Of a DNA stretch of 64,000 bases, positions 125 to 23,860 are shown piece by piece. The stretch covers positions 27,566,894-27,630,893 of the forward strand of contig CM020618.1 of NCBI GenBank assembly GCA_009829735.1, in the 5' to 3' direction. The DNA is from Pyropia yezoensis. Taxonomy: Eukaryota > Rhodophyta > Bangiophyceae > Bangiales > Bangiaceae. The notes below the pieces were generated by a model that worked only from the letters and a program-made list of their open reading frames with translations, had not been told where the DNA came from and did not search any database. The translations under genes and the position numbers were made by a program. Within the stretch, counting starts at the first letter, position 1, and each line of letters begins with the position of its first letter.

Positions 125-126
125 TA

Positions 127-2430: not shown

Positions 2431-2575
2431 TACTTGGAGGCAAGGAGGGTGAGAGTCTTGGGAGAAGCGAGGAGGGAAGAGGCGGAGAGAAGGGTTGCTC
2501 GAGCGGGTGCTTGTTTTCCTTGATTGTTCCATGCTTGCATTGCGTGTTTTCCTTGATATACTCGTTCCCTTCTTC

Positions 2576-5500: not shown

Positions 5501-6535
5501 CCGGTATGGTTGCAGGTGTACTGGCTTAGCTTCCGGCTTGAGTTGAATTCGGTGTAGAGTGGCGTCCATCTTGCCCAGCTCTCCCGACCACAGGTGCCGA
5601 TATTCCCGGAGAAGCTTCTCCAGTGCCTCCTTCAAGTCGGGAGGGACATTTTCTTGTTTGACCTTCGGCATCCCGGGTGGTGCTTGTTCGGGCTTCGGAG
5701 TAGCGCTGCCAGCCTGCTCTTGTTTCGGAGGTACGTCTAAGGCCGTCAAGTTGGATGCCAGCTCTTGTTGCAGGTTCAAGAGGTCTTCCTTGCTCATAGC
5801 ACGGGCGGACCCCCGGTAAGGCTCTGCTGTACCAACTCGGGTGCCCCTGGCGAGGGTTATTGGCTTCCGGCTCACGTTGACGATCAGCACCGAGAACGGG
5901 GTGTGCCTTTCTACCTTCCTGTGATGTCCGTGGGCCAAGTATAACCGGTGCTTCGCCAGAAATTCCTTACGTCCATAGATCAGGCATTGACCTGCAATCC
6001 GGGTCGTTACTTGAACCTTGGTCTCCGAGCGAGGAGGTAGGAACACCGGTTTGAAGAGAGTCAAGGTAGAGGGTGGGATGCGTTCCCTCTTGTTCTTGGC
6101 TACACGAACCTTGGCGTCCAGATGCTCCAATACCGGTGACACAAACCCATGGTTGAACTGCACCTTCCCTTCTCTGGGTAGAATGCTCTTGACATGCTGC
6201 TTCTGGAAATCCCAGCCTAGGATAAGGGGGACTGATTGGGTCTTGACTACAAGAAAAGGAAAAAGCATTGGTTCTTTGTTGACATAGATGGCGACGGGAA
6301 GGCGGCCCAGCGGTCGTAGGGTTTGACCTGATGCGTCGACAATGTGGGTTCTGGTAGGCGCTCTCCAGGCATGTCGACGCCAGCCCGGAGGTAACAGGTT
6401 CTCAGTGATGACGCTTGGTCCGGCTCCCGTGTCAACCACCGGCGTAACAGCTTGGGGGAGGCTATCCCCCACACGCATTCGAGCATTAATCTTGAGGTTT
6501 TCCTTACGCAGGACGAGCAAGGTCCCCTTGAACAA
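2576..6535 (-). pseudogene. pol: E1 pol: protease, RT, RNase H, integrase, chromodomain; one nonsense codon
   Basis: Single frame from about 6535 to the stop at 2576, broken once by TAG at 5414-5416, where E2 and E3 have Trp (GEWASPVV context), so a TGG to TAG change. Protease motif DTGA lies early. RT follows with YLDD just downstream of the nonsense codon, then RNase H with its first acidic residue present (ETDACG). Integrase has H-H-C-C (GHPG...CVSCARN) and the catalytic D, D and E (DILGP, TDNGPQF, GQVERF). The end is a chromodomain (VYVKFVDHAW to DDTWEP) plus an acidic tail. The start is not defined; the frame differs from gag, so expression probably needed frameshift or reinitiation. About 1,320 codons, normal for the family. 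Confidence 0.93.
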
Positions 6536-6663
6536 ACAGGGTGTCCAGGCGGCTACCAGTCGAGCAGGAAAATGCCGTCCTTTCTTCCGGCACGCAAGGG
6601 GAGAACGGGTAGAAGTACCCTGCCGTTGGAGGTTCGGGAAGACACTTGGGGAGAGCGCCTGCC

Positions 6664-8424
6664 CTACTCGTTTCCCGGGTCCGAGGAGTCCTTAGAGGTT
6701 TCGGTCTCCAGGTCAAAGTCCGTAGGAGCTTCCCTTGCCAGAGCCTCCGTGATGCTCTGTAAGGTTGCCACTCGGATTGCGTGTACCTGTGCCTTGTCCA
6801 TCTTGGAGGGTGCTCGCCGGTCAGCCCAGTTGACCGCCTTTGCAAACACCAGTCCTTGACGCTTGAGTTTCTCCAGGAGATCCTTGGGAATGGTCGCGCT
6901 TTGGTAGGACATGTGGTCCTCCTTCTGGCACAGCCAGCAAGACCGGAACCGCTGGTTCTTGACCTGCTTGGGGGCGACCAGGGAAGGTTGTTCCTTAGAA
7001 ACGAAGCCGCCCCACTTGTCCCCTGACCCCACGGGTGAGGCCTCGCCAACTGCGAGTACCGGTACAAGGCTATCACCTCCCTTATACTTGTCGGGTCCGG
7101 GACGAACTCACGACAACGGCTTGGGAGTTGATACAATGGGAGCTTGGAGGGCCTTGGATTGCCGGTACTTGCCCTGGGTATAGGCCATCAACTGCTGGAA
7201 GGTATGTTCTTGATGTTCCTGGTTGTAATTCTCCGCATCCACTTGAAGATATTCAGGAAGCCCTTCCGAGAAGATCATCTTAAGCCTGTCCTCAGGGTAA
7301 ACGTTGCCACAAGCCTCGCTCATCTCCCGGACACGACGGGCAAAGGCCTCTGGAGTCTCTTGTCTTTCCATGGTTGCCCGGTTCAGCCTGCCGACTGCTT
7401 TACGCAGGGAGTCCGCGTCAGCGTAGTTGGACAGGAGCCAGTTGACCGCCTCCGGATAACTCCCAACGGTACGCCCGACAATGTGTCCGGCAGAGTCTGG
7501 TCGAACCTGTGCAAACCGCTGTTCCGCTTTTCCGGTCATGAAGTTAACCAGGAGGTAGAGAGTTTTGCCCTCGGACACATCGTTGCCATTGCATGCCTTG
7601 ACAAACCGGCGCAGGAAAGCAAAGATAAGCGCCGGTCTCTTCCCGGAAAACTTAGGATGTCCCCCGAAGCTCGGCTGCATTCGCCGGTTCAGGGATGCCA
7701 TCTTCTTGGCCATCTTCCGGGTGTAACCTTGGTCTTGGTTCTCCAGCCGGTAGTTACCCCAATACGTGACCTTGTTCAGGGTGGCATCTCCCACTTGGTG
7801 GGCAGGGAAGTCAAACTCGACTAGCCTGCGCCGGGTGGGACAGGGAGATGCATCGCAGTCATATCCCTCCTCGGAGCTGGAGGAACTGGTCTCGCTGGTG
7901 CTACAGCGACGGCGACGACGCCGACGCCTCCGGCTACTCCGGTTACCGGTCTTAGAGCTCCCCGCCCCATAGGATGCAAGGGGAGGAACAGCTTGGCCGG
8001 TCCAAGGAGTGGAGGTCTCAGGGAGACCCGTGGAACCAGTCACAGCGGTGCCTCTGGCACTGCTAGTGCCCACAGGAAGAGGTGTATACACCCAGCTGCC
8101 ATGTGTGGGTCCAGGAGTAAACACACCAGGGGCTATCCCTGGAGGTTGAGGAGTAGAACCGACAGGAGGGAGACGTCTGCTGCGAGCGGACTCAAACGCC
8201 GTTGACCCCGGGGTGGCTCCCACAGGAGGAAGAGCCGGAGGAACGGGAGCAGGAGGTGCTTGGCCGCCTGTAGACTCCAGTCCGCTACCGGATGTCACAC
8301 CCAGGTCTGCTTCACCCGTAGGGAGAACGCCGGGTTGGGCACCGTCCCCCGCGGTGACCAGGGATGCGTCAAGGGACGCCGGGTCTACCCCTTCGGGCAC
8401 CGTCGTGCCAGGGAGGGTAGCCAT
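6664..8424 (-). pseudogene. gag: E1 gag with one in-frame TGA
   Basis: ATG at 8424; open to TGA at 7108-7110, then open again in the same frame to 6664 (587 codons in all). The N-terminus is Pro/Gly/Thr-rich, followed by an Arg run and a Ser/Glu-rich stretch near residue 165. The capsid-like part carries FLRRFVKACNGNDVSEG, close to the same block in E2 and E3. The zinc knuckle lies after the TGA and reads CWLCQKEDH, but the fourth ligand is Ser, not Cys. The TGA separates capsid from nucleocapsid. It could be a nonsense mutation or a readthrough site; given the other stops in E1, I favour mutation. Confidence 0.88.
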
Positions 8425-8612
8425 GTTGGTCTCTTGACAGCCACAGTCCAGCTGCCTGCGTGTCCAAAGATCGCAAGACCACAAGAGAGGGGTTGGAGAG
8501 CCAGGAATGGGATTCCCGTGAACGGGTGCAAATAATTCCCAAACCACAGAAAAAGACAGAACAGGAACAACCCAACCGCTGCTCCCAATTGTCTCTTCTC
8601 AAGCACTCCGAC

Positions 8613-8630
8613 TCCCCTGCTGCTCCACCA
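8613..8630 (-). other. E1 primer binding site
   Basis: Minus strand reads TGGTGGAGCAGCAGGGGA, four bases inside the LTR end. It begins with the TGG that pairs with tRNA 3' CCA. The same 18 bases occur in E3 and in the TRIM. The primer tRNA would have acceptor 3' strand CTGCTCC with discriminator A. I cannot assign its identity. Confidence 0.8.
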
Positions 8631-8634
8631 AATA

Positions 8635-9205
8635 TGTGGTATAAAACTCGATCCTCTCAGGCACGTGTCAATATCCCTCGGGGGAAAGGGACAGGTAACA
8701 CAGAAAGGGGAACTACGAGAATGGTATGCCTGTTGCCTCACGTGCCTGCTCGCAGAGCAAACAGATACGCACGGTAGTGCACACGGGGAAGAGGAAAGCA
8801 AACGCGCAGTTGTCTTTTTCCTGAGGGCGCGGGCCAAGGGCGCCTCGCTGTCCCTCTTAACGAGCATCTGAGGGAGCCTCGGCACGTTGGCCAGGTAGCC
8901 CCCTCATAACCCAGAGTGGCCCCGACCCGAGTCTAACCTCGTCAGGTCGGGGGCCACTATCACTACTAATTCTATTCCCACTCACTAATCTCACACTCAA
9001 ACTCTCTCAAATCAAGTCCCTCACAAGTATGCAAAAACCCTTCAGAAATCCCTCTCTCACGTGTGGATAGCGTAGTCCACCGCATCCCAGTGCCGGGCAC
9101 GGGCCACGGCCGCCAACCATCACCACACGGCGGGCGTGTTCTGGCACCTGGTGCCCTCTGGTTGTAGTCCCGGGTCGGCGCCAAGTCGGGGCCAGGGATG
9201 CTACA
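8635..9205 (-). repeat. E1 5' LTR (571 bp)
   Basis: Bounded by TG...CA on the minus strand (TGTAGC at 9205, ACCACA at 8635). The outer 124 bases recur at 1-124. The PBS follows immediately. Identity between the two LTRs over the visible part is complete, suggesting fairly recent insertion despite the nonsense codons. Confidence 0.92.
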
Positions 9206-9274
9206 CTCACCCTAAGGGTGGGGGCAGCGTCCACGTTTTCCCCCGCCGTCGTCTCTGGTGGAGAGCGGCCAACC

Positions 9275-9610
9275 ATGGCTTCCTCGTCGGGGTCATCAGG
9301 CCACAACGCCACCATGGGTGACGGCGGCGGACCCGTTCCCCTGTCGGTTCCTTCCTCCCCCCGTGGCCTTTCGGCCACGCGGATGCCTCCCGCCGCTCCG
9401 GGCGACGTCCTGATGGACGACGCCGGGTGCGGCCGGGGTGATTCCGGTCTGGCTTCGCCGGCCGAGGTACCTGTACCACCGTTGGCGGACTCGGGGGGCC
9501 TGGCCCCCTTTCTTCTTCACTGCCGCTTCAGCGCGACTACCCGTCACCCTAAGGGTGACATGCAGAAAAGACGTCAACCATCCCAAGGGTGGCGACCAGT
9601 TCCAGCATAA
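9275..9610 (+). pseudogene. E2 antisense ORF, N-terminal remnant
   Basis: ATG 9275 to stop 9610 (111 codons), plus strand, opposite in sense to E2 gag-pol and at the LTR-proximal end. That is exactly where E1 and E3 begin their aORFs. The product is Ser/Pro/Gly-rich, like the first hundred residues of those proteins. Two perfect palindromes in CCCTAAGGG style lie at 9208-9220 and 9543-9559. The conserved central part is missing, removed by the same deletion that took the C-terminal half of pol. Alternative: a chance ORF in GC-rich sequence. Confidence 0.45.
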
Positions 9611-10005
9611 GGCTCAAGGCAGGGCTTGGGGTCTAAGGCTCTTACAAGGAAACGCCGAGGTGACCAAGGGACCTCCACAAGGGTGACCGATGGTCATGCT
9701 TCATCTCTGCGCCCAAGTATCGCGTACTCTCTTCCGTGCCGGGGGGCCTTAAGGTCACCCTGGAGCCATACTGGCACCGAGCTGCCAGTGTATCCGTCAT
9801 CTGCGAAGCATGCTCGGGGCACCCCCGTGCAGCGGACCCCATGGGGGTTGAGCAAAGCATTTTTCCGAACAAGACGCGCGGGAAGAGGGCGGCCGTTCGC
9901 CACCGTTCCCCGTCGACGTCGACCCCCGCCACACCAATACCGGTGTGGATGCCATCGAAGAGGACGCACCTCCAACATTCGAACCCGCGACCTCGCCATT
10001 ATTAT
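9611..10005. other. E2 segment of unclear origin, next to the deletion junction
   Basis: No convincing coding frame. The plus strand is Arg-rich in one frame, as the tails of the aORFs are, so it may be scrambled aORF sequence. Pol similarity starts abruptly at about 10006. At about 9905-9960 there is imperfect inverted-repeat sequence around an ACCGGT-type core. Confidence 0.4.
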
Positions 10006-13000
10006 GACTCCCTGGAAATAGACGGCCGCAAACTGAGGTCCGTTGCCCGTCAGAGTGGAATCCGGGAAGCCATAGGCAGCCACCCAATAATCGATAAATG
10101 CAGAGGCTACCCCAGGGGCAGTGGTGTCCGATAGTGGGACGGCCCTCACCAGTTTGGTGAACCGGTCGCACATCACCAGGAGCATGGTGTGCCCATTCTC
10201 CGTCTTCGGACGGGGACCCAGCAAATCCATGGCCACCGATTGGGATGGCTCAAGAGCGGGGAATAGCTTCATAGGAGACTTATGCCTCCTATCCGATATG
10301 CGGTTCTTGGTGCATCCTGGGCAGTTATAGACATACCCGTATACATCCGCCGCTAGGGCGCGCCAATAGAAATACTGGCGCATCGTCCTGTACATCTTCC
10401 GGGAACCCGGATGAGCCGCCGTAGGCGCATCATGATACAATTCCAGAACACGCTTCCGCAGCGATTCCGGGATGACCCATTGGTTATTCCCCCCGAGTAA
10501 GGAGTGGCGACACAGTACACCATCGTCGTCTTCAAAGAAGAAGGCGTTCCGCTGCCAACGGGCATCCTTTGGAGGGATGAGAGGCCCTTCCATCCGGCGT
10601 TGCTTGCAAAACTCACCAGAGGCCTGTGCCTCAATGAGCTCTCGAAGCGTAATCTTCCCGAGGCGCTTAGGGCTTCGGTCTGTGAGGGCCTTTGCTGACC
10701 GGGTCACCGCCAATACGGGTATCTGGTCATCCAAAGGTGTCCTATCCAAGCCATCCTTAGGAAGGCGAGACAGGGCATCAGCCACTTTGTGGTCCTTCCC
10801 CGGTTCGTGCTTAATTTGGTACGAGAATTCCGCCAAGCGGTGCCTCCAGCCCGTAAGGCGTCGATTAGGGCTATTGCTTGTCATCACAGAAGTGAGGGCA
10901 GAATGGTCACAGCGCACCAGAAATTCGGATCCTTCCAAGAAGGAACGTAGGTAGGTCACTGACCATACCACTCGGAGTGCCTCGATTTCAGTGGCACAAT
11001 AGTTCCTTTCGGCCGGGGATAGACCCCGACTAAAATACCCGACGGGGAGATACTCCCCGTCCTCTTGTTGTTGCAGCAAGGCAAAGCCCAGCTGCTCATA
11101 GCTGGCGTCTACCTCCAAAATGTAATAGGCTCCCTCCCGAGGAATGGCCAAAATAGGAGGCTTCAGGAGGCAGTCGCGAAGTTCCTCGAACGCCGCTTGA
11201 GTCTCCTCCGTCGGAGGAGGTAGTTCATTGGCTAGGTGCGTACTAGTCAGCACGTTCAGCGGTCGAGCGATACGGGCAAAATTCGGGACAAACCTTCGGT
11301 ATACCCCACACATGCCCAGGAAGCTCTTCAGCTGCGTTTGAGCACGCGGATAATGCAAACCCTTGAGGGCTTTGCTATTTTTCTCATTCACGGCCACCCG
11401 CCCTGGGCGGATGACATGTCCCAAATATTCGACCTCTCTCTGAAAGAGGTGGCACTTGGACGCCTTCAGCGACACGCCGTTCTCCTTGAGGAGACTCAAA
11501 ACGTGTTCCAAGTGGTGCAGGTGCTCCTCGTCAGAACGAGAAAAGACGATAACATCGTCTAAATATACGAGGCAGGTCTGCCACTTCCCACCAGCCAGGA
11601 TAATATCCATAGCTCTCTGGAACGTCGCTGGAGCGTTGCAGAGCCCAAAGGGCAACCGCGTATATTTCCATATGCCCTTATGACACGTAAATGCCTTCAT
11701 GTGCTTATCCTCTGGTGCAATAGGAATTTGCCAATATCCAGCGTTACAATCTAGGGTGCAAAACACCCTGGCTTCCCCTAGGGAGTCCAAACATTCATCC
11801 ATCCTTGGAATGGGATATGCGTCCTTCACCGTGACGAGGTTAAGGCGCCGGTAGTCAATGCAAAACCGAGGCGTACCGTCCGACTTCGCGACGATTACCA
11901 CGGGACTAGCCCACTCGCCCTCGGCGGGTTGGATATCTTCGAGTTTTCGCATCCGGTCCACTTGTTCCCCTTCCAACTGGCGATGCTTGTGCCCCGCCTT
12001 ATAGGGATCTTGCCTTACCGGGGTTGCCCCGGGTGTTAAGCGGATACGGTGCACGGTATTCTGGATGAGCCCAAGAGTACCATCTTATAAGGATTTGTAT
12101 TTCTCCACCAGCTCCAAGAGCTGGCCACGTATGGCTTCAGGGACCTCTCCTAGGTCAACCTCAGAATGGGCGCCCTCCTCCTTCACCGCAGGACCTTCGC
12201 TCAGCTTCTGCATCTCTTCTTGAGAGACGCTCAGTATAGGTCCTTGATAGGATGATATTGACGCCACCACCGTCCCAACGGGAAGGCGGACCATCCTTGG
12301 CGTAGGATTCATCATTTGCACGGTGTACGGGGCGTCTCGGTTTAGCTTTGCGGGGCCGTTCGCCACGTGAACACCGTACTTGGAGGCGATACGGGGCTGC
12401 CCGGAAATAATCCCGTGGCCTTGGAAATTCCCTCGCACCTTCACGTGCGAGATAACCCCAGGCTTCAGCCTCAACTTGAGACACAAGGTGAGTTTTGCGG
12501 TCTTGACCTGTGGACAAGCGCACACAGGGTTCCACTTAATGGGACCCGTTTCCACATCCTCCATATCCCGGAGAATCGGGACAACCATCCCTGTCTTGAG
12601 GGTCACCGTCTGGTCCTCACGGGAGATGGTTTTCACCTCGGTGTCACCAAATGAATTTCCTAATATGACGGGTACCGCCATACTATTGATCACTCCAAAA
12701 CAGACGTAGGAGACTTGGTCTCCCACTTGTACGCCCAAGCGTACAGTTCCTCGAATGGGGAGCCACCCCCCATTCAGGTCAAAGTACAGTATATTCTCCA
12801 GCTCCCCTAGGGGCTGGAGCCCCATTCCCTTCGAGAGCAAGGAGCTTCGAATCAAGGAGGGCCCGCTGCTGGTATCCAGGACAGCGTGAAAAGCATGCTC
12901 TAACCCTTCAGTAGCAAACAAATGTACAGCCAGCTGATAACTGGATGAAGGCATAATCGCGCAAATAACATTTTCCCGTTTCACCCCCTTAGGGAGTGCC

Positions 13001-13287
13001 AATAATGCAGGCTTGTTCGTTGGGGGGCGGCGCAAAATCCTCTTAGGCCCCCCCGTGTCAGGGGACGTAGTGGGAGAAGCTCTAGGGGGACCGCCCCTTA
13101 CGCGTTTCCCGAAGATGAGGAATCGGAGGAACTCCCCTTGGGGGAACTCGGTCGATCTGCCTTCCCCTTTGGGGAGGGCGTAACCGCAGCAATCGCCCCG
13201 CCAGTGCGGGCGGAGTCTCGGGCCTCCTTGCGCTCCGCGCGCGCCTTGGCCATCTGTGCTTGAGTCGCCACCGGGAGGTGTGGACAA
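10006..13287 (-). pseudogene. pol: E2 pol remnant: protease, RT, RNase H, truncated integrase
   Basis: Same frame throughout, with an in-frame TAA at 12085-12087 where E3 has the Trp of KLWDGQLGL. Protease active site reads DTSSG rather than DTGSG. RT has YLDD. RNase H keeps its first Asp (EVDASYEQLG). Integrase has the zinc-binding H-H-C-C (HPGSRK...CPGCTKN) and first Asp (MDLLGP). The second catalytic Asp is Gly (LTGNGPQFA). Similarity stops right after FQGV, so the rest of integrase and any chromodomain are gone. The N-terminal limit is not defined; the frame overlaps the end of gag. Confidence 0.9.
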
Positions 13288-14255
13288 TTTGACATCCAGT
13301 GGGAAGTACTATTACAGACGTGGCAGTGCGCCGGCCGTCATCGACGGACGGGCGAATTCGATAAAGGTCCCTCTTCAAGGGATCCTTAGGAAATTCCGGG
13401 AGGAGAAGCAAAGCTCGCCCCTCTGAGAGGCCATTATCATTTGCCGCTTTCACAAAGCGGTTGAGAAATTCGAAGACTCCCAGAGGAGGGTCTCCCCCCC
13501 AATTCACAATCGCGACCAAATACACTGGCCAGGTCCTTTCGCTTCTTACCCAGGCCTTGGGCCTCGGCTCCCGATACTCAGTTGTCCTTGTTCTTGAGAG
13601 CATATGTCTCACAGTCCAGCAGGCTCGCATAACGATCGTCTGCCGGAATAATTTTGGGAGGAATCTCCCATAGGGGGACTCGCCCCGGTCCTGCCTGAGC
13701 GGAAACCGCTCGGACTACAGGTCGCGGGCGCCGACGGCGCTCGGGAGGCGAAGCCTCCCCTCCGAAATAATCCGAAGTCGACTCAGACGAAGAACTGGGC
13801 TGCCGGCCACGCTGGCGCTCCCGTTTCTGCACACTTCGCTCCACAGAACTCAACCGTTGGCTGAGTGGAGTCAGCAGGCCGCTGACAGCCTCCACCATAG
13901 CTTTCTTCCATTCCTCCGTAGAAGTATCCCATCCAGGGGCCACAAACGCTCGAGGGGTCTCCTTAGGAGACCATGCCCCCGTGAGGCGAACCGGAGGGGT
14001 GGGCGTTCCCTCAGAATCCACCCCCGCAAAGGGAAGAATCTCAGGAAAATTGCCGAAGCCGGTTGAATGCCCTCCCTCGCGCTTCCCGCGCGGCTGGGAG
14101 CACAGTTCGCCCGATGGGCCCTCCGAACCGATTTCCAGCGGGGGTAGCCGGGTCGTCACCCTACGGGTGGCCAGGTCATCAACTCCAGCGCCTTGGGCGC
14201 GCGGAGGAGCAGCGCCTCCAATCGCGCTCTCCTTCGTCACGGATGAACCGCCCTC
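13098..14255 (-). pseudogene. gag: E2 gag, main part, with stop, frameshift and deletion
   Basis: Continues the gag frame that starts at 24350 on the far side of the E3+TRIM insertion; removing one CAGGA copy restores phase. A disordered N-terminal region leads to LDCETYALKNK, matching FDCETYALHNK of E3. A TGA at 13578-13580 follows. Then a one-base shift in a C/G run near 13494-13500 moves the capsid block (FEFLNRFVKAANDN) to another frame. About 160 residues present in E3 are missing before the zinc knuckle, whose four ligands remain (CHVCNSTSHWMSNC, near 13290-13335). The Ser-rich tail stops at 13098. Confidence 0.85.
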
Positions 14256-14260
14256 CAGGA
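14256..14260. repeat. Target-site duplication CAGGA, left copy
   Basis: CAGGA directly precedes the E3 5' LTR terminus TGTGGCAG. The partner copy is at 24303-24307, directly after the TRIM terminus GCTACA, not after the E3 3' LTR. Confidence 0.9.
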
Positions 14261-14731
14261 TGTGGCAGTATTGACCCCCAGGTAGGGGGGGGCAACACGT
14301 GCCATGCAAGGGGCGGCAGGCCACTAGCCTGATCCGTTCCTCCCCCTGCATTTGGGTCCATATTCCCTAAGTTTGGGATAGTTAGCTTAGTAGTAAATCC
14401 AACTTGGATTTGAGGGTTTTCTGCATTTATCGTCTTGAATTTTCGTGTGGCCCGGTGGGCAGGTGCTGGGGTGGGAGATTCTGAGTGGCGAGATTCTGAG
14501 TGGACCCTGGGGGGATAAGGGCAAGGACAGCGGGGCTTGGCCCTGCGTCCCCGTCCCGACCAAGAAACTGTTGGACCACACACCATCCTCTTGTTTGTCC
14601 GTGGGGGGTTTGCCCCACAACAGGGACAGAGTGTGTGCGACTTGCACTTCTTCCGGTTCCCCCGACACGGGAGGCAGCCCTAGCACACCGCCCCAACTTG
14701 GGTGCCGTGTGTGCTTGTGGTTTTTGCCACA
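14261..14731 (+). repeat. E3 5' LTR (471 bp)
   Basis: Begins TGTGGCAGTATT and ends GCCACA. Same length as 23172-23642. Contains a 17-bp perfect palindrome at 14395-14411 and an 11-bp one at 14692-14702, both with CAACTTG at the centre. Confidence 0.95.
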
Positions 14732-14733
14732 TT

Positions 14734-14751
14734 TGGTGGAGCAGCAGGGGA
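14734..14751 (+). other. E3 primer binding site
   Basis: TGGTGGAGCAGCAGGGGA two bases after the 5' LTR. Identical to the E1 and TRIM sites. Confidence 0.85.
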
Positions 14752-14850
14752 CAGAGGTAAACTTTACCTCCGGGTGCACCCGGGTGTAGGGGGCCCTCTG
14801 TCTCAGAGGAACGGTGGACTTGGACCGTGTCATACGGATCGTCAGCCAAC

Positions 14851-16770
14851 ATGGCTAGCTCGGACCCCCCGTCGTCCGGGGAGTACACGGGTGACGCACG
14901 TACTTCAGTGCCTTTGAATACTGGTGAGACACAGGTGGGTTTACCTGGGGTCGCAGAGGGACTAGAGGTCCCTCAAGCCAGCAAGACTGGAAGTACGGGC
15001 GGGCAACAGGCCACCCCGACTCAGTCGGGAGTTCACTCGGGTGACACTTCTGATGTGGGTGGGCCGAAGTCTGGCTACCGTGTGGTACACTCAAAGGGAA
15101 CGTCCCAAGGGGTGAGGACTGTCCCCGCGGGTTCCACTCGGGTTGGAGCCAACTTTGGCTTGGAGCCGTCGCCAACTAGGCTTTCGGAGGACGGCGGACC
15201 TCCGTTGGTCGGCGATGGGCTCGCGCCCATGCCCCCGGTTGAGACCCCTGAGGAACGTGGTTACCCCTCAGGTGGACTCCCGGAGGCGGACCGAGACTCA
15301 ACTGGAGTCGTCAATCCACTCCTCGCGGAAACTGTCCGTCGGGAGGCGACCAATGTGTTGCGGCAGACTTTGCCGGACCTGGTGGTCACGATGACGAATA
15401 CTAGTCTGAATCAGATTGTGGCGAGTTTGCCAGATGGCCTTAATGTCCAGACCGGACTGGGGCTTTCGAGCCCGCAGGCGCCGGGGGAATCTCTCCTGAC
15501 GCCTATTCCGGGTCGCCCCGAACAGGGGGCGACACATGTGACTCCCAACGAGGGAGCCACACCATACTCGGTGGGGCGTACGCCCTTCATGGGGGAGCTC
15601 CCCCCGGCAACGCCGGCGGGTACACCAAGCGCGCCGCGCCGGACTACAGGCGCTGAGGGTCAACTTACCCCAGTGCCACAGCGGCTGTTCCCTCAACGTG
15701 AGGTGCCGCCCAAGATCCAGGTAGCCAACCCGGTCTACCAGAGGATCTTTGACTGTGAGACCTACGCCCTCCACAACAAGTCGGTGGCGTATGGTCCTGA
15801 CCAGGCCCGAGCCATGGGCCGTGCCAAGAAGAATGCACTTCACTCTTTTGGGCACAAAGCGGAGTGGGATGGAACTCCCCCCCTCCGTGTCTTTGAGTTC
15901 CTACGTCGTTTCACAAAAGCCTGTGACGACAATGCCATAAGTGAAGGCATGGCTTTTTACATGCTACAGGAGTTTACGAAGGGCGACCTGCGGACAGAAC
16001 TTATGTCCGTCATGCCCAGCTCCTCAAGTGAAGGCGCTGGGGAGGTGACGTCCTATTTGGAGCTCGTCAACTGGTTGTTGAGAGCCATGGTTGATGAGGC
16101 AGAGTTGGCTTCTCAAGTCGAGGACTTCACGCAAGCCCATCAGGAAAAGGCGGAGGACGAGTTGTCCTTTGCGGAGCGAGTCCGTAAGCACAACAATCTT
16201 TGTGGGTTTCTTCATCCACAAGCTGTGGTGAAGAGTCGGTTTGTGGAGAGACTCCATTGGTCAGTCCGGATGGAGACCCGGGAGCATAACACTACCCGGG
16301 CGACCCTGGCCGAGTTGGCTAGGTTCGCCTATCGCAGAGGCGAGGCCTACCGCAAGTTGCGGGAGGAACAACGCCAGGAGCGTCAGGCCGAGTTGGCCAA
16401 GGAACGGGAGGAGGCGCGCCAGGCCAGAGAGTTGAGAGAGGCACGCCGAATCCGCAAGAAGAGGGCGGTAGCTGCCGTGGGAACTTCCCAGGGTATCTCT
16501 TTGTCTTCCCCAGTTGGGAAGACCCCTCCCGGAACGGACCATCGGTGTTGGAACTGCAACTCCGATGGTCACTGGGCATATGATTGCCCCAAGTTGAGTA
16601 AACGCATCCAACAACTTGTTAGGAATGCGAGTAAAAAGTCGGCTACGAACGAAGTACGTTCACGCCGCGAGGGTGGGTCTCGACCGGTCGTTGCGGTCGC
16701 CACACCCTCGGCGGAGGAGGCGGACACGTCGTCCTCGGACTCGTCGTCTTCCTCCCCGCCCTCAGATTAG
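14851..16770 (+). CDS. gag: E3 Gag polyprotein
   Basis: ATG 14851 to TAG 16768-16770, 639 aa. It forms the virus-like particle and packages the element RNA. Residues 1-290 are Gly/Pro/Thr-rich and probably disordered. The capsid-like region follows, starting around FDCETYALHNK and running through FEFLRRFTKACDDNAISEG. A charged helical stretch rich in Glu/Arg (near residue 510) precedes one zinc knuckle, CWNCNSDGHWAYDC, at about residues 566-579, all four ligands present. The tail is Ser/Asp-rich. The frame is also open a few codons upstream from a GTG; I chose the ATG. Pol starts 23 bases after the stop in the -1 frame. Confidence 0.92.
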   Translation: MASSDPPSSGEYTGDARTSVPLNTGETQVGLPGVAEGLEVPQASKTGSTGGQQATPTQSGVHSGDTSDVGGPKSGYRVVHSKGTSQGVRTVPAGSTRVGANFGLEPSPTRLSEDGGPPLVGDGLAPMPPVETPEERGYPSGGLPEADRDSTGVVNPLLAETVRREATNVLRQTLPDLVVTMTNTSLNQIVASLPDGLNVQTGLGLSSPQAPGESLLTPIPGRPEQGATHVTPNEGATPYSVGRTPFMGELPPATPAGTPSAPRRTTGAEGQLTPVPQRLFPQREVPPKIQVANPVYQRIFDCETYALHNKSVAYGPDQARAMGRAKKNALHSFGHKAEWDGTPPLRVFEFLRRFTKACDDNAISEGMAFYMLQEFTKGDLRTELMSVMPSSSSEGAGEVTSYLELVNWLLRAMVDEAELASQVEDFTQAHQEKAEDELSFAERVRKHNNLCGFLHPQAVVKSRFVERLHWSVRMETREHNTTRATLAELARFAYRRGEAYRKLREEQRQERQAELAKEREEARQARELREARRIRKKRAVAAVGTSQGISLSSPVGKTPPGTDHRCWNCNSDGHWAYDCPKLSKRIQQLVRNASKKSATNEVRSRREGGSRPVVAVATPSAEEADTSSSDSSSSSPPSD

Positions 16771-16793
16771 GACGCCAAGTCGGCGGGAAACGA

Positions 16794-19700
16794 ATGACCG
16801 TTGGGGCTGGTCGTCCGAAGCTCACAACGGCAGCCTCGGCCAAGTGGGCCAGGAGGACGAACCAGCCGTGCCGGATACTGCGGCGACCTAAGGGAGTCCG
16901 CCCACCTCGGGTAGGACTCCCCAAGAACGTAAACCCACGTCGGGTCATCGCGGTGCTGACGGGTGAGAACTTCCAGGTGGCTGGACGGGTGCAACTTGCC
17001 CCCGGCCGCGCCTGTTGTGCCCGTATCGTACTTGATACCGGGTCAGGAGCCTCCTTGATACGCAAGTCGCTATTACCGAAGGAGGTGGAGCTCCAACGCT
17101 CGGGGTCCAAAGCTGACCACATGATTGACATCAATGGTGGGGTACTTCCCATCGTTGGTGCCGTGACCCTACCAACTAGGTTGGGGACCCATGGGGTCGA
17201 CGTGTCCTATGGTGTAGTTGAGAATATATCGGTATCCCTGCTTCTGGGTACCCCTTATGTTGTTACACAAGTGCCTTTGATTTGTGGCCCTGAGTACTGG
17301 GTCAATTTGATGAATGGGGAGACTATCCCCATCCTTGGTAAGGGAAAGTCTGTGGCTCCTGTGACAGTCTCACAGTCGAAGCCTGTTTGTTCGGTGAGGG
17401 AAGGGTCTACTGCTACCCTGCGTTTAGCCCGCAAAGTCACGTTGCCCCCCAACTCGGTGGCGCACGTTGATGTTGTAACTGATTTTACGGGGAACGGGTT
17501 GGTGCACCCTCACCCCCGTCTTGCTCGCAAGCACCAAGTGCATGTTGTCCTTGGCACGATGGACTCCAAAGCCGGAGTCCCGTGGAGGATCCAGGTGATG
17601 AACCTGAGCCCGACGCCCAAGTACTTCAAGTCGGGAGCCAAGTTCGGCTATATCGACCAACACGAGGGACCGGTAGTAGCGGTCACCCTCAACGCGGGCG
17701 CAAGTAGCGACCCGAAGTCCGGAAAGGAGAAGCATCAAGCCAAGTCGGCCGCCTCTCCTCGACCCCATGTGAACATGGAGGGTGTTCCACCCAGGTTGAG
17801 GGCTCAAGTTGAACGCCTCTTGGACCAATATCACAAGTTGTGGGATGGTCAATTGGGACTCATGAGAGCCACCCAACACCGGATCGAGTTGAAGCCCGGT
17901 GCACCCCCTATACGCCAACAACCGTATAGGGGAGGACCTCGTTCAAGGGCCCTCGTTAAGGAGCAAGTTGCTCGCATGGAGGCCCTCGATGTGATCGAGG
18001 CCAGCAACGCCGAGTGGGCGAGTCCGGTGGTTATCGTCCCCAAAGTTGATGGGACCCCCCGGTTTTGTATCGACTACCGTAAGCTCAACGAGAGCACGGT
18101 GAAGGACAGTTATCCCCTACCTAGGATGGATGACTGTCTGGACTCTCTGGGGGAGGCAAACGTGTTCTCTACCCTGGACTGTAACGCGGGGTACTGGCAA
18201 ATTCCCATTGCCCCGGAGGACAGGCATAAAACTACCTTTACCTGTCACTGTGGTACCTACCAGTGCAAGCGCCTACCGTTTGGTCTGTGTAACGTGCCGG
18301 CAACTTTCCAGCGCGCTATGGACATGATTCTGGTCGGAGTACGGTGGCAGATCTGTCTCGTGTACCTAGACGATATCATTGTGTTCTCCCGAAGTCCGGA
18401 GGAACACATTGGCCATCTTGGCCAGGTGTTCAAGCTACTTGCTGACGCCGGTGTGTCACTGAAGGCGAGTAAGTGCCACCTCTTTACTCAAGAGGTGGAG
18501 TACTTGGGACATGTTATCCGCCCGGGGCGTCTCAGTGTTAACGAGAAGAACTTGAGGGCCATTCGTAAGGCTCAGTACCCCCGGACCCAGACCCAGATGA
18601 GGAGCTTCCTCGGGATGTGTAACGTGTACCGACGTTTCACCAAGGGCTTCGCCAAGGTGGCGAAGCCGTTGAATGAGCTAGTGAGCTCAACGCTACCGAA
18701 GAACCTGCCTTCCCCAAGTCGGGTGGAGCAGGAATCCTTTGAGACTCTTCGGGACCTTCTGCTGAAGCCCCCCATCTTGGCTATTCCCAGGTTGGGAGGC
18801 CACTACATCCTGGATGTGAACGCTAGCTACGACCAACTTGGTTGTGTGTTGCTTCAGCAGCAGCCGGACAAGGAGTACTTGCCGGTGGGACACTTTAGTA
18901 AGGGGCTGAACTCGGCCGAGAAGAACTACGGAGTCACCGAGTTGGAAGGACTCGCAGTGGTGTGGGCGGTGACGTCACTTCGTCACTACCTGGAGGGTGA
19001 GAAGTTCCTCATCCGCTGTGACCACCGCGCGTTGCAGTTCATCTTTAAGACGGACTGTACGAACACTCGTCTCAACCGGTGGAGGGTGCGACTGGCAACC
19101 TTCAACTTTGACATTGAGTACCGACCTGGCAGGCAACATGCCCTTGCCGATGGCCTCTCTCGGGTACCCACCGAGGGGCTGGACACTAACCCAGTCGATG
19201 AGGACATCCCCATCGTGGGAGTAGTCACGCGCTCGGGTCAGGCGTTGAACCCCGAGGCGCCAGGGAACAAAAAGTACTTGCCCCTGTCCCTGGAAGAGGT
19301 GGTGAAGGCCCAGGCCGAGGATCCCTTCTGCAAGTCGCAGAGGGATACATTGGATACGGTGGTAGAGACGCGGTTCTTTCTGGGAGACGATGGCCTCTTC
19401 ATGAGGAGGGGGGTATTCCAGGGGACCGAACAACTTGTCGTCCCCGCATCCCTCAAGGACAGTATCCTTGAGAGGGAGCACAACGCTCCCACGGGTGGAC
19501 ACCTGGGGTCTAGTAAACTGTACCAGACCCTGAGGACCAGGTACTACTGGCCGTCCATGGTGGTGGACATCTACAGTTGGGTGGCTGCCTGCACAAGTTG
19601 TGCACAGAACCGTCTGATGGAACGGCGGCCTAGTACGGCTATGTTCTTGTTCCCGGCCAAGGAGCCCTTCGCCGCGTTGGCGATGGACATCCTTGGGCCA

Positions 19701-20777
19701 CTGCCAGTGACCGAGGAGGGCAACCAGTACCTCCTGGTCATCTGTGACCGCTTCACGAAACTTACGCGAGCGATCCCACTGGCAGAAATCACGGCCATGT
19801 CGGTCGTGTCAGCCTTCCTAGATCACTGGGTTGCCGCGTATGGCATTCCGGATAGTACACTATCGGACAATGGACCGCAATTTGCGTCTGTACTGTTTCA
19901 GGGAGTGCTGGATATGTTGGGGGTTAAGGCAAACTATGCCACCCCCCACCACCCACAAACAAATGGGCAGGTGGAGCGCTTCAACAAAACTATTGTTAGG
20001 CAGCTGCGCCACTATGTGAGTGAGCACGTGAAGACGTGGGACCAATACATTTCTATCCTTACTACTGCCTACAATTCTCAGGTTCACTCATCTACGGGGG
20101 AAGTACCCCTCGCTTTTGTGACCCCCCGTCGTGTGCGGTCTATTGCCGTGCGGCGGTCGCTCCCAACTAGGGAGGATGGTGGCAGTACGCCTACTCCTAC
20201 TGAGAGTAAGGCGGAGTTCGCTGCTAGGCTTGAAAACCTCATCCCTAAAGTCAGGGCTGAGATGGACAAAGCACAAAAGCGCTACAAGCGTACCTTTGAC
20301 AAAAAGGTGCGCAGCGCCAAGCATATCCCCGAGCAGGGCGACTGGGTATTGGTCCACTCACACACCCCAACTTGGGGTAAGTTGGTACTCGAGACGAAGG
20401 GGCCGTACCAGGTCCTTCGTACTGATGGGCGGCGCTTCACCATCGAAAGTGACGATGGGGTCCGCACAGTGAACGGACAGGACGTGGTCAAAGTTGCACC
20501 ACCGCCTGCAGGCGACCCAGCTTCGGCGCGTGCTTTGGAAGCGTGGCGCCTCCCCTCACTGCCTGCGGCCAAACAGGGCCCGCAGGAGTACGTGCTCGAT
20601 AAGTTCATCGACCACGGATGGGATGAGGACACTGACCGCCTCATGTTGAGGGTGCGTTGGTTTGGCTACAAAGCCAAGGATGATACGTGGGAGTATGTGG
20701 AGGACCTTCCCGCTGAGAAGGTCCGGGCGTACTGTGCCCGGAATGAGATAGACCCTAACAGCCCTCCCTCAACGTGA
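16794..20777 (+). CDS. pol: E3 Pol: protease, RT, RNase H, integrase, chromodomain
   Basis: 1,327 aa from ATG 16794. Protease DTGSGASLI near residue 80. RT with LDCNAGYWQ, LPFGLCN and YLDD (residues about 523-526). RNase H follows, but the first catalytic acid is Asn (LDVNASYDQLG; codon AAC 18819-18821), where E1 and E2 have Asp. Integrase has H-H-C-C (REHNAPTGGH...CTSCAQN), then D, D, E (MDILGP, SDNGPQF, GQVERF). The end is a chromodomain (VLDKFIDHGW to KDDTWEY), which in chromoviruses directs integration to marked chromatin. The frame is open upstream into gag, so either -1 frameshifting or reinitiation is possible. Otherwise looks functional. Confidence 0.95.
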   Translation: MTVGAGRPKLTTAASAKWARRTNQPCRILRRPKGVRPPRVGLPKNVNPRRVIAVLTGENFQVAGRVQLAPGRACCARIVLDTGSGASLIRKSLLPKEVELQRSGSKADHMIDINGGVLPIVGAVTLPTRLGTHGVDVSYGVVENISVSLLLGTPYVVTQVPLICGPEYWVNLMNGETIPILGKGKSVAPVTVSQSKPVCSVREGSTATLRLARKVTLPPNSVAHVDVVTDFTGNGLVHPHPRLARKHQVHVVLGTMDSKAGVPWRIQVMNLSPTPKYFKSGAKFGYIDQHEGPVVAVTLNAGASSDPKSGKEKHQAKSAASPRPHVNMEGVPPRLRAQVERLLDQYHKLWDGQLGLMRATQHRIELKPGAPPIRQQPYRGGPRSRALVKEQVARMEALDVIEASNAEWASPVVIVPKVDGTPRFCIDYRKLNESTVKDSYPLPRMDDCLDSLGEANVFSTLDCNAGYWQIPIAPEDRHKTTFTCHCGTYQCKRLPFGLCNVPATFQRAMDMILVGVRWQICLVYLDDIIVFSRSPEEHIGHLGQVFKLLADAGVSLKASKCHLFTQEVEYLGHVIRPGRLSVNEKNLRAIRKAQYPRTQTQMRSFLGMCNVYRRFTKGFAKVAKPLNELVSSTLPKNLPSPSRVEQESFETLRDLLLKPPILAIPRLGGHYILDVNASYDQLGCVLLQQQPDKEYLPVGHFSKGLNSAEKNYGVTELEGLAVVWAVTSLRHYLEGEKFLIRCDHRALQFIFKTDCTNTRLNRWRVRLATFNFDIEYRPGRQHALADGLSRVPTEGLDTNPVDEDIPIVGVVTRSGQALNPEAPGNKKYLPLSLEEVVKAQAEDPFCKSQRDTLDTVVETRFFLGDDGLFMRRGVFQGTEQLVVPASLKDSILEREHNAPTGGHLGSSKLYQTLRTRYYWPSMVVDIYSWVAACTSCAQNRLMERRPSTAMFLFPAKEPFAALAMDILGPLPVTEEGNQYLLVICDRFTKLTRAIPLAEITAMSVVSAFLDHWVAAYGIPDSTLSDNGPQFASVLFQGVLDMLGVKANYATPHHPQTNGQVERFNKTIVRQLRHYVSEHVKTWDQYISILTTAYNSQVHSSTGEVPLAFVTPRRVRSIAVRRSLPTREDGGSTPTPTESKAEFAARLENLIPKVRAEMDKAQKRYKRTFDKKVRSAKHIPEQGDWVLVHSHTPTWGKLVLETKGPYQVLRTDGRRFTIESDDGVRTVNGQDVVKVAPPPAGDPASARALEAWRLPSLPAAKQGPQEYVLDKFIDHGWDEDTDRLMLRVRWFGYKAKDDTWEYVEDLPAEKVRAYCARNEIDPNSPPST

Positions 20778-20888
20778 GGGAAGGCCGAGCACCAGTGCCA
20801 AGAGAGTGCTTCAAGTCGAAGTGGTACGCAGAGTGGCTTTTAACTACAGCCCTAACCCTCAGACTCTCACAACAAAGGCAGCTGCCAA

Positions 20889-22832
20889 CTAGGCACGCAT
20901 GCTAGACTCTCCCACTCCACGGCCCTCGCCCTCACGTGGAGGCGAGCGGCGAGACCCACGCCGATAACGGTCTCCACTCGTTGGAGGGGGCGGCGGCTCC
21001 AAGTTGGAACCGTCGCGCCCCTCACGGTCGCGCAAGTGGCGCCGACCGTGGCCACTCTTCTGCCTGGTCTTGCGCGCAAGTTTGCGACGCAGACGCTGGA
21101 CAGACTCCGTCTCCGACGGGGTAGAGGACTCCGAAACGGAGTAAGACAACTCGTCTTCCGATACGGAAGGAGAGCGCCGCGAGTGTCGGCGACGACGGCG
21201 AGGAGGCGAGTATGCCCGGCTCGCGCGACGTTTGCCACGCCCAAGTGGGGCTGGCTGGGGCATAATAGCCCCAATGCGAGCCAACTCGGCTGTCATAAAC
21301 TCCGCCACCGACTCGCAACTCGCGGTCGCCACGGCAGTACGAACGCGCTCCTCAAGTTGAGGAGTCTCGGAACTCTGTAGGGTTGCGGTCGACGCGGCCA
21401 ACCAGGAAATGGTGCGCACCAACGTGGTGATCATCATCTCTGAGGTTAGAGGCGTGGGCGGCAACACCAACTTGGGGTATACCGTCAGGAGGGTGGCCCC
21501 CAAGTTGGGGGACACCGGGGTGGAAGACTCCACGGCCACGCTGATCGGGATGTTCCCGTGAGGTTGGAAAGGAACAGGAGGAAGCGGAGGGGCCCGCCGA
21601 GGTGGCGGTACCCGGGTGTAACTGCGACCCCGACTTGGGGCCCCCGCAGTGGGTTGAGTCATATGGTCATCATAGGACGGCACGGCCATAACTATGGGCT
21701 TGTCCGGGGGTGGCGCAGTGTGGCGATCCACCCCCGGGGCATACGGGTAGTCCCCGATTCCCAACCCCTCTCGTAGGACCACACGGCCGTCGTGAAGTTC
21801 ACGAGCGACCCACACGAACTGGCGAAGTGCGCCATCGTCCTTGGGCCCACGAGTGGGGCGGCGCAACTTGTGCTCAATGCTCTCCCACTCGATGAACTTA
21901 TGGAGCCGGAGCATCTCCTCAAGTAGAGTGAGTTGTCCTGATGAGCACCCCTCAGCAACTAGCTGAGGGGTGAGCTGTTCCAAACCTTGGATGAGCCGGA
22001 GGGGGAGATGCCAGAGCATCCCCCGCCGCTGAACACAGGACACCCAGGTCGACATGACCTCGAGGAGCCACTGGGTGGCCAACATGGCCCACACCAGGTG
22101 ATCAGGGGCAGCCGTCAACATGACGGAGCCGAAGTGGTCAAGCAACCGTGGCAACAACGCCGGGAACCCGTAGGGGACCTCAACTTGAGGCCACCACTCG
22201 GGCTTCTTCGGATAGTACTGCTCCTTACTGGCAGCAGACTGTTGAGGAAACTCAAGTTGAGCCGCGGTCACCAAGTAGGGACCTCGCCGGAAGTCTTTCT
22301 CCATCCGCACATCAAAGTGATGAGTGTGCGGATCGGCCTCGTGGAGGTACGGTGGGCGAGTTGCCACAGCGTCCCACGTGAAGGTCGGCAAGTCGCCGGG
22401 ACCCGGGATAGTTCCCCCGCGGTCCACCATGGCCTTGGCACGCTGAACGTCCTCAACCTCCTCATCGTCCAGGAAGGCAAACTGGTCCGTCCTGAAGCCG
22501 GCAGGGAACCCGACCCTACGGGGATACTTCTCCCGTAGGCGGTCCCATACCCGGCCCATCGCTGCGCCAAGTCGGCCACAGCGAAGAACAGTCAGCCCCT
22601 CCTCATAGAGAGGCCAAGCGGGGTAAAACCACCGCCCCAAGGCCTCACGCGGGACAACTTGTCCCGCCTCCGGGGGAGACCCCGCCGTCAACCCAAAGCC
22701 GGGTGACGCGGGAGTCCCATCCCCCGGAGCGATCGCGGAGCCCCCGCCGGAAGTCCCGGCGGGTGCTGCACCGTAGGTGGTGTCCTCCATACGCTCATCT
22801 AGAGAGTCCGTCTCCACTCCCAGGGTCGCCAT
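20889..22832 (-). CDS. E3 antisense ORF protein (aORF), unknown function
   Basis: ATG 22832 to stop 20889, 647 aa, uninterrupted, antisense to gag-pol. It converges on pol with 111 bases between the stops. Residues 1-90 are Gly/Pro/Ala-rich. A folded-looking region follows: MGRVWDRLREKY, then FLDDEEVEDVQRAKAMVD, and a block containing YYPKK, EVPYGF, WAMLATQWLLEVM and LWHLPLRLI that matches the E1 aORF by eye. The C-terminal third is Pro-rich, then strongly basic with Arg/Ser repeats, suggesting nucleic-acid binding. No known domain recognised and no clear signal peptide. The frame also extends upstream from a TTG at 23003; I prefer the first ATG. Antisense ORFs at this place are known in some plant Tat-lineage elements (Grande, Retand); homology to those is untested. 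Confidence 0.75.
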   Translation of the reverse strand: MATLGVETDSLDERMEDTTYGAAPAGTSGGGSAIAPGDGTPASPGFGLTAGSPPEAGQVVPREALGRWFYPAWPLYEEGLTVLRCGRLGAAMGRVWDRLREKYPRRVGFPAGFRTDQFAFLDDEEVEDVQRAKAMVDRGGTIPGPGDLPTFTWDAVATRPPYLHEADPHTHHFDVRMEKDFRRGPYLVTAAQLEFPQQSAASKEQYYPKKPEWWPQVEVPYGFPALLPRLLDHFGSVMLTAAPDHLVWAMLATQWLLEVMSTWVSCVQRRGMLWHLPLRLIQGLEQLTPQLVAEGCSSGQLTLLEEMLRLHKFIEWESIEHKLRRPTRGPKDDGALRQFVWVARELHDGRVVLREGLGIGDYPYAPGVDRHTAPPPDKPIVMAVPSYDDHMTQPTAGAPSRGRSYTRVPPPRRAPPLPPVPFQPHGNIPISVAVESSTPVSPNLGATLLTVYPKLVLPPTPLTSEMMITTLVRTISWLAASTATLQSSETPQLEERVRTAVATASCESVAEFMTAELARIGAIMPQPAPLGRGKRRASRAYSPPRRRRRHSRRSPSVSEDELSYSVSESSTPSETESVQRLRRKLARKTRQKSGHGRRHLRDREGRDGSNLEPPPPPTSGDRYRRGSRRSPPREGEGRGVGESSMRA

Positions 22833-23158
22833 GGCTCTCCCCAAGTTGGGGAGAGACGCTCTGGCTATCGCAGCACGAGACCCGCCTCGAGTTGAGGGGG
22901 ACTCGGATCGTGGGTATACGGGTGGCCTCCCCAGCGTGGGGCGGCCCAGTGGAAGGTGAAGGGGAGGTGGTGGTGATGGTGAAGTGTGAACTAAGGAGAG
23001 CAAGCTGCCGAGTGGGCAAGCTTGAGGAGAGGGGCGGTCAACGTGACCGCCTCCACATCCGCGTTACGTACTCAAGGGGGGGACAGCAAGTCGCGCCCCC
23101 AACGCCGAGACGTGCGTTTACGCACCCCCTCACAGGGCCGACCGGGTCGGTCGGAACT

Positions 23159-23171
23159 GAGGAGAGGGGAG
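23159..23171 (+). other. E3 polypurine tract
   Basis: GAGGAGAGGGGAG immediately before the 3' LTR terminus TGTGGCAG. Confidence 0.8.
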
Positions 23172-23642
23172 TGTGGCAGTATTGACCCCCAGGTAGGGGG
23201 GGGCAACACGTGCCATGCACGGGGCGGCAGGCCACTAGCCTGATCCGTTCCTCCCCCTGCATTTGGGTCCATATTCCCTAAGTTTGGGATAGTTAGCTTA
23301 GTAGTAAATCCAACTTGGATTTGAGGGTTTTCTGCATTTATCGTCTTGAATTTTCGTGTGGCCCGGTGGGCAGGTGCTGGGGTGGGAGATTCTGAGTGGC
23401 GAGATTCTGAGTGGACCCTGGGGGGATAAGGGGAGGGACAGCGGGGCTTGGCCCTGCGTCCCCGTCCCGACCAAGAAACTGTTGGACCACACACCATCCT
23501 CTTGTTTGTCCGGGGGGGGTTTGCCCCACAACAGGGACAGAGTGTGTGCGACTTGCACTTCTTCCGGTTCCCCCGACACGGGAGGCAGCCCTAGCACACC
23601 GCCCCAACTTGGGTGCCGTGTGTGCTTGTGGTATTTGCCACA
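23172..23642 (+). repeat. E3 3' LTR (471 bp)
   Basis: Same length as the 5' LTR, with about five substitutions visible by eye. Ends GCCACA, then TA (23643-23644), then the TRIM LTR. Confidence 0.95.
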
Positions 23643-23644
23643 TA

Positions 23645-23858: not shown

Positions 23859-23860
23859 TT

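Follow-up and report, generated by a model that had tools for sequence, protein, structure and literature searches.

The window analysed here, 64,000 nucleotides of contig CM020618.1 of the red alga Pyropia yezoensis (assembly GCA_009829735.1), contains a Ty3/gypsy long terminal repeat (LTR) retrotransposon, E3 (14261..23642, + strand), which carries short hairpins with a five-nucleotide loop along its entire length. The stem sequences differ between sites, while the loop and the spacing are constant. Hairpin arrays with loops of other lengths are found in two further families of the same genome: these LTR retrotransposons carry a stem-loop code that is specific to each family. The E3 hairpins are tentatively read as putative signals on the genomic RNA that the Gag protein of the element recognizes.

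Pentaloop hairpins in E3

The hairpins were delineated by a census that sorted every perfect inverted repeat according to its spacer, with no core assumed. For stems of at least 5 bp, a 5-nt spacer occurs 51 times in E3 against 10.3 expected, compared with 17–19 occurrences for the even spacers from 2 to 10. When stems of at least 6 bp are counted, the even spacers lie at about background, and for stems of at least 8 bp the 5-nt spacer is observed seven times where the rest of the window predicts 0.5. Spacers of 11–20 nt are also raised (12 to 29 stems of at least 5 bp, 10.3 expected), which suggests bulged or branched stems. Loops of the form N-A-S-T-N on stems of at least 4 pairs occupy 49 sites, with 1.4 expected: such stems surround 28 of 160 AGT centres and 21 of 158 ACT centres, and are also seen at the loops AACGT (4 of 11), AACAT (3 of 5) and AACGA (2 of 5). 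Around the 316 NASTN pentamers, Watson–Crick pairing at arm positions 1–4 reaches 1.80, 1.64, 1.87 and 1.57 times expectation, compared with 0.98–1.13 times for NASVN and NBSTN and 0.85–1.27 times for six control cores. The first stem pair is C-G in 32 of the 49 sites, a weak base preference only. Arm position 5, seven bases from the centre, is A-T or T-A in 16 of 26 paired cases as against the G-C dominance at pairs 1–4 and 6.

Hairpins occur about once per 180 nt, in the LTR, in gag (14827..16770, + strand), in pol (16794..20777, + strand) and in an antisense open reading frame (ORF; 20889..23003, − strand) alike, and all three reading frames run uninterrupted across the sites. Regularity of spacing is not clear: the coefficient of variation is 0.95 in E3 and 0.97 in random sets, and in the neighbouring element E2 it is 0.77, a value as low as that being reached by 5.9% of random sets. 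Coding and chance were controlled with 300 shuffles, in which synonymous codons were exchanged within gag, pol and the antisense ORF and the remainder was dinucleotide-shuffled. N-A-S loops on stems of at least 5 bp number 35 against a shuffle mean of 2.97 (maximum 9), and N-A-S-T loops 26 against 0.90 (maximum 3). Each ORF is enriched in stems of at least 5 bp over codon shuffles: gag has 7 against 0.66, pol 11 against 1.05 and the antisense ORF 12 against 0.71. The original prediction, which had described the sites as selected dyads that protein coding does not explain, is supported: the arms vary and still pair, and shuffles that preserve codons and dinucleotides do not reproduce the number of palindromes or hairpins.

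That prediction was framed in terms of perfect odd palindromes on a CAASTTG core. All 16 palindromes that it listed are present at their positions, far above chance, and the LTR palindrome pair is found again in the 3′ LTR, at 23314 and 23608. Within unique E3 DNA (14261–23171), 20 of 22 CAASTTG sites add a Watson–Crick pair at the first outer position (C-G 8, A-T 5, T-A 4, G-C 3), in agreement with the claim that the arms vary and stay paired. The non-E3 comparison DNA, about 109 kb including masked letters and composed of the rest of the window and loci L005–L024, holds 10 CAASTTG sites, two of which are paired at that position. The palindromes are tied to the E3 lineage, as four observations indicate: the 107.5-Mb genome contains CCCCAASTTGGGG 1729 times and the reversed pattern 11 times; one E3 piece gives 1296 first-look candidates, a sign of an abundant family; arms not present in the E3 of the window show no enrichment over the reversed control (GTCAASTTGAC 23 against 19, GCCAASTTGGC 172 against 852); and the first three GCCAASTTGGC loci retrieved (L025–L027) are E3 relatives. 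The core itself turned out to be narrower than proposed. Only A-S-T is fixed and the bases on both sides are free, the CAASTTG palindromes being the symmetric subset, with A at loop base 1, T at loop base 5 and a closing C-G pair. A census restricted to CAASTTG had suggested the DNA palindrome as the unit, a view overturned by the pentaloop that emerged from the spacer-length census. Most E3 loops are non-palindromic (AACTA, TACTC, CAGTA, CAGTT, AAGTC, AACGT and others), and long hairpins such as CACCCCTCAGC-AACTA-GCTGAGGGGTG had been overlooked because their loops are not symmetric.

The palindromic subset is exemplified by the LTR hairpin AAATCC-AACTT-GGATTT (14395..14411; this and the following sites are given on the + strand), whose loop is AACAT in most of the diverged copies. 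The spacer-length census revealed the non-palindromic GTCTTCCC-CAGTT-GGGAAGAC in gag (16503..16523) and, in pol, CCACCTCTT-TACTC-AAGAGGTGG (18476..18498), GGCTTCGCC-AAGGT-GGCGAAGCC (18645..18667) and CTCAAGGA-CAGTA-TCCTTGAG (19452..19472). At about the place of 18645..18667, the 93% copy L032 has a GCCAASTTGGC palindrome, that is, a loop AAGTT. The longest hairpin, with 11 bp, is the above-mentioned AACTA example (21946..21972): all four relatives that cover it keep the loop, and the stem differs in places. AGGTC-GACAT-GACCT (22046..22060) and CCGTC-AACAT-GACGG (22112..22126) each have a perfect stem in three of four covering relatives. GCGGGAC-AACTT-GTCCCGC (22649..22667) is missing from five relatives compared and present in L032. 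At 20364–20385 two hairpins overlap, ACCCCAACTTGGGGT and CCAACTT-GGGGT-AAGTTGG.

The E3 loops are also oriented. Over the 49 sites, loop position 1 is A in 33, G in 10, C in 4 and T in 2, and position 5 is T in 20, A in 11, C in 10 and G in 8; a purine is therefore found at position 1 in 43 of 49 and a pyrimidine at position 5 in 30 of 49. Sites with the purine only outnumber those with the pyrimidine only by 17 to 4. As a strand-symmetric signal would give A at position 1 as often as T at position 5, the loops are oriented, and the purine is seen in both centre classes (19 of 21 C-centred and 24 of 28 G-centred loops), favouring one orientation. Among 67 five-nucleotide loops drawn by RNAfold, which renders AASTT as triloops, position 1 is A in 37 and G in 17, and position 5 is even. 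The E3 hairpins share one direction along the element, as in RNA or in one cDNA strand; the asymmetry does not tell which strand is read. An arrangement of R-A-C-N-N hairpins on either strand was considered and set aside in view of the purine in both centre classes, though the letters at positions 2 and 4 lean slightly the opposite way.

Recurrence in diverged copies

The copies at L005–L024, 95–98% identical to E3, proved too young for an analysis of covariation. A search with the diverged copy L031 yielded 932 candidates, of which 40 were scored (75–100% identity to L031). The resulting alignment of region 22590–23430 has 30 rows, namely E3, L031 and L034–L061, hence 29 diverged copies: L060 is approximately a duplicate of L053, L033 was omitted as it lies in the same place as L031, and the other 11 scored places are not included. 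Many of the rows probably represent dead copies. Seven hairpins are found again in the majority of the copies, at about 71–84% identity to E3, with AAGTC, AAGTC, AAGTG, GACGT, AACGT, AAGTC and AACAT as the commonest loops. In these seven helices 90.0% of 1547 cells are paired, compared with 39.8–49.1% when the helices are slid along the alignment.

Helix 1, CCCGCCGG-AAGTC-CCGGCGGG (22743..22763, + strand, as for the following helices), recurs in the diverged copies and is paired in 90.8% of cells. Helix 2, CTCTCCCC-AAGTT-GGGGAGAG (22835..22855), is paired in 86.3%; in diverged copies it reads CTCCCCCT-AAGTC-AGGGGGAG and in one of them CTTACT-AAGTC-AGTAAG, which amounts to compensatory changes. 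Helix 3 (23001..23024; 95.2%) is a bulged hairpin, CAAGCTGCC-[A/G]AGTG-GGC(A)AGCTTG, with a bulged A and with U-A 18 times and U-G 11 times. Helix 4, GGCGGTC-AACGT-GACCGCC (23031..23053; 93.3%), is lengthened by a G-U and a G-C pair. A hairpin at 23060 is present in relatives and lost in E3.

Cells changed on both sides number 20, against 9.0 in shuffles (none of 500 as high), and lie mostly in helix 2. Across E3 copies the hairpins recur with both-side changes above shuffles, and compensatory change is limited. RNAalifold, run on the whole alignment, mostly chose other pairs. In 12 loci of E3-family copies, counted together with their flanking DNA, the density of NASTN stems (at least 4 bp) is 2.0 to 6.0 per kb.

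Loop codes in other families

E2 (9206..14260, − strand), a gypsy element next to E3, has its own array, built on a triloop with A or T at the centre and spread over the element. N-W-N triloops on stems of at least 4 bp occupy 45 sites (44 with other margins) against 9.1 expected, and N-S-N triloops 10 against 12.4; an example is GACGGGGAG-TAT-CTCCCCGTC at 11041–11061. In a 350-bp piece of E2 with four copies 88% identical, three of four sites persist, with scattered single changes and some wobble; at the fourth site, 11187, one pair forms a T-A / T.G / C-G series in the copies.

A third family, F4, is represented by L016:1-3591 and L009:5117-9001, which are treated as one family because they have in common a 910-bp stretch that is 96.6% identical. 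Its stems of at least 5 bp enclose tetraloops, 47 and 46 of them per 3.6–3.9 kb against 3.7 and 2.9 expected. The loops are enriched in N-Y-R-N, with 35, 8 and 31 observed in three parts against 2.7, 1.0 and 3.7 expected, and the closing pair is G-C in 58 of 83 and 64 of 85 cases. In F4, as in E3, stem counts are raised at many other spacers up to 20.

The NASTN code of E3 on stems of at least 4 pairs is encountered nowhere in E2, the three F4 parts, the gypsy element E1 (125..9081, − strand) or the gypsy fragments L012 and L021, and twice, against 3.4 expected, in the window from 24 to 64 kb. E1, the internal control, and the fragments L012 and L021 have no excess of any of the three loop codes.

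Folding energies follow the same division. RNAfold was applied to 150-nt windows with 12 dinucleotide shuffles each, and the z values on the + strand are −2.18 for E3, −2.45 and −1.57 for F4 and −1.21 for E2, compared with −0.14 for E1, +0.15 for L012 and −0.05 for the window at 40–48 kb. Expressed as a ratio of mean energies, the folding excess over shuffles is about 15.6% in E3, 8.9% in E2 and 19.1% and 9.8% in F4. Genome-scale ordered RNA structure (GORS) has a threshold of 3%, set on 300-base fragments as against 150 here, in the available excerpt of PMC3950689; E3, E2 and F4 all have native energies well below those of order-shuffled sequence, on the plus and the minus strand.

Candidate functions

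The proposal put forward here, at rather less than even confidence, is that the E3 hairpins are putative Gag-read RNA signals for self-recognition and packaging, on a genomic RNA that has genome-scale ordered structure as well. E3 genomic RNA would be tiled with short Watson–Crick stem-loops bearing the loop R-A-S-U-N, in which A2 and S3 are nearly fixed, U4 is usual and position 1 is mostly a purine. This loop may be read by the RNA-binding protein of the element, and the stems would jointly compact the RNA. With such dispersed signals a family could pick its own RNA among the many co-resident gypsy families. Gag is the likeliest reader because the code extends over the entire RNA, is not the same in co-resident families and has a likeness to the dispersed packaging signals of RNA viruses. 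A wider version, in which three families have distinct structural identity codes of some 45–50 or more hairpins each (E2 a 3-nt N-W-N loop, F4 a 4-nt Y-R-enriched loop, E3 a 5-nt R-A-S-T-N loop) and each Gag packages its own RNA, is more speculative still.

Of the two readings that the original prediction had offered, the pentaloop, the pairing and the orientation favour RNA hairpins sharing a conserved loop. A symmetric DNA-binding protein is disfavoured: the arms are complementary with weak base preference, the E3 loops have one orientation, and a conserved hairpin is bulged. The antisense product, which had been suggested as reader, is weakened and unlikely to act alone. It is a poorer candidate than Gag because E1 has a homologous opposite-strand ORF (BLASTP E 3e-6) and yet no hairpin excess.

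Several findings weigh against Gag-read RNA signals. Judged by loop positions 2 and 4 alone, a reading on either strand is slightly ahead of a one-strand reading, with 11:6 against 9:8 exclusive cases (with a C centre, A2 only 6 and T4 only 3; with a G centre, A2 only 3 and T4 only 5), and the loop-centre classes A-S-T, W and Y-R are each reverse-complement symmetric, as expected of DNA. The folding excess is nearly equal on the minus strand. Single-defect stems of E3 comprise 8 G-U, 10 A-C and 28 other mismatches, about as composition predicts, so that G-U is not favoured, which is unusual for RNA stems. The codes are not exclusive: NSN triloops in E3 (65 against 23.7), other pentaloops in E2 (53 against 21.1) and non-YR tetraloops in F4 (24, 16 and 32 against 8.0, 3.1 and 11.5) are raised too, partly through the same sites in another register. 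Most of the covariation comes from a single helix of the seven; counted by pair, both-side changes total 8 where shuffles give 5.2 and 58 of 500 are as high, and slides reach 6–12. Stem columns are conserved at 0.910 compared with 0.881 elsewhere, and shifted masks reach 0.922. Finally, nucleotides 429–4979 of Ty3 are dispensable in trans according to the available excerpt of PMC4974528, so that the arrangement known from yeast is not one of tiled packaging signals. As a test of strand, the comparison of G-U with A-C gives no clear answer: E2 single-defect stems have 16 G-U, 15 A-C and 35 others, and those of F4 have 57 A-C against 17 G-U (22 and 11 in L016, 35 and 6 in L009), a surplus that, by our own estimate, the A-richness of the sense strand explains in L016 and not wholly in L009.

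A role at the DNA level, rather unlikely in our assessment, would involve extruded or single-stranded DNA hairpins, for instance in cDNA, or sites of a DNA-bound protein such as an anti-silencing or chromatin factor. The Watson–Crick stems of E3, with no wobble excess, the symmetric centre classes, the near-equal folding excess of both strands and the exclusive-letter counts lean towards it; the orientation of E3 loops at positions 1 and 5 and the conserved bulge speak against it, a dimeric reader does not explain complementary arms without specific sequence, and E1 has the antisense gene yet no dyad excess. The VANC/VANDAL anti-silencing motifs, family-specific short fixed DNA sequences multiplied through a transposon, are comparable in that a family-specific motif is multiplied, and E3 differs in that its arms are complementary without fixed sequence: all four pair types occur at arm positions. 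Ordered structure by itself, with stems serving compactness or concealment from RNases, RNA silencing or double-stranded RNA sensing and no specific reader, is unlikely. It accords with a folding excess above the 3% threshold in all three families (PMC3950689, available excerpt) and with the stems raised at many spacers in E3 and F4. A loop code would not be expected from it; the families nevertheless have different top loop lengths and centres, and the 5-nt spacer stands out in E3.

Less probable again is a kissing-loop network, in which base pairing of NACUN with NAGUN loops, inside one genomic RNA or between two of them, would compact or dimerize the RNA. In its favour, E3 has similar numbers of C-centred (21) and G-centred (28) loops, ACU and AGU are complementary, and palindromic sequences have been proposed for Ty1 dimers (PMC4974528, available excerpt); against it, the E3 lists contain no loop that would match the recurring AACAT and GACAT as a partner, and E2 constrains a single centre base, too little to kiss. 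A mutational origin, by which template switching of reverse transcriptase perfects near-palindromes that have no function, is highly improbable. Perfect pairing, the wide range of arm lengths and the near-equal conservation of stem and other columns are in keeping with it. Under it, neither a code in the loop sequence nor a spacer fixed within each family would be expected, and against it also stand the recurrence of sites in diverged copies, the gag, pol and antisense ORFs that stay open through the sites and the lack of excess in E1.

The Gag-read signals proposed for E3 have counterparts in viruses. Dispersed packaging signals have been described in MS2, picornaviruses and hepatitis B virus pregenomic RNA, and consist of many stem-loops genome-wide with a common recognition motif, in MS2 at the apical loop (PMC6281560, available excerpt). 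E3 displays the corresponding combination of many stem-loops, a shared loop motif and variable stems; it differs in that the carriers are LTR retrotransposons, the loop length is family-preferred and the stems are near-perfect Watson–Crick helices, and binding by Gag in the place of a coat protein is putative here. The resemblance to GORS, as portrayed in the available excerpt of PMC3950689, lies in a folding energy far below shuffles along the genome in some families and not others; an added code of loop sequence and size sets the present arrays apart from the whole-genome structure of RNA viruses. Ty1 and Ty3 packaging elements likewise entail recognition of RNA by Gag in cis, as proposed for E3, and palindromes have been proposed in Ty1 dimerization; the Ty cis elements lie near the ends, unlike the E3 sites, which lie throughout (PMC4974528, available excerpt). 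No description of retrotransposon hairpin arrays of this kind was found in the literature searched, a limited collection.

Other features of the window

E3 is a Ty3/gypsy LTR retrotransposon, as reverse transcriptase, RNase H and integrase in this order, the LTRs and a CCHC Gag demonstrate. Pfam matches comprise RVT_1, RT_RNaseH, Integrase_H2C2, rve and zf-CCHC, the last being the zinc knuckle of the gag ORF, and a weak Chromo; no protease match was obtained in the pol ORF at E 0.001. The LTR pair has an offset of 8911, 99% identity over a 300-nt core and the termini TGTGGCA...TGCCACA. The 5-bp flanks, CAGGA and TATGT, form no target site duplication, and an LTR-like start (TGTGGCAGTATC) adjoins the 3′ LTR at 23643–23665. 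The antisense ORF has no Pfam match, and a protein search with it returned one match, 96% identical. Its E1 homologue (952–1986, + strand) lies opposite E1 pol and also lacks a Pfam match; the antisense ORF is probably an old gene of these elements.

A scan of viral contigs with E3 pol revealed no relative, and no Rfam family matched at gathering score in the window from 9000 to 24500. Elsewhere the window contains a degenerate tandem repeat of 24/30 nt in 17 registers (29386–30175), with several overlapping ORFs, and an inverted repeat (59903–60505) whose arms of 276 nt are 94% complementary around a spacer of 51 nt. In L029, which is DNA without an E3 match, TGGTCAAGTTGACCA is present at 1506 and 1674, two copies 168 bp apart.

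Significance

To our knowledge, the way in which LTR retrotransposons tell their own RNA from that of related families is poorly understood. A dense code that is legible from the sequence, different in three families of one genome and unseen in others makes self-RNA selection directly testable. The loop scan, which scores arm-position pairing per core, is applicable to any transposon library. If the proposal is true, genome-scale ordered RNA structure and packaging signals of the dispersed type would extend to cellular retroelements, and the family-specific identity codes would be a retroelement counterpart of phage coat-operator specificity.

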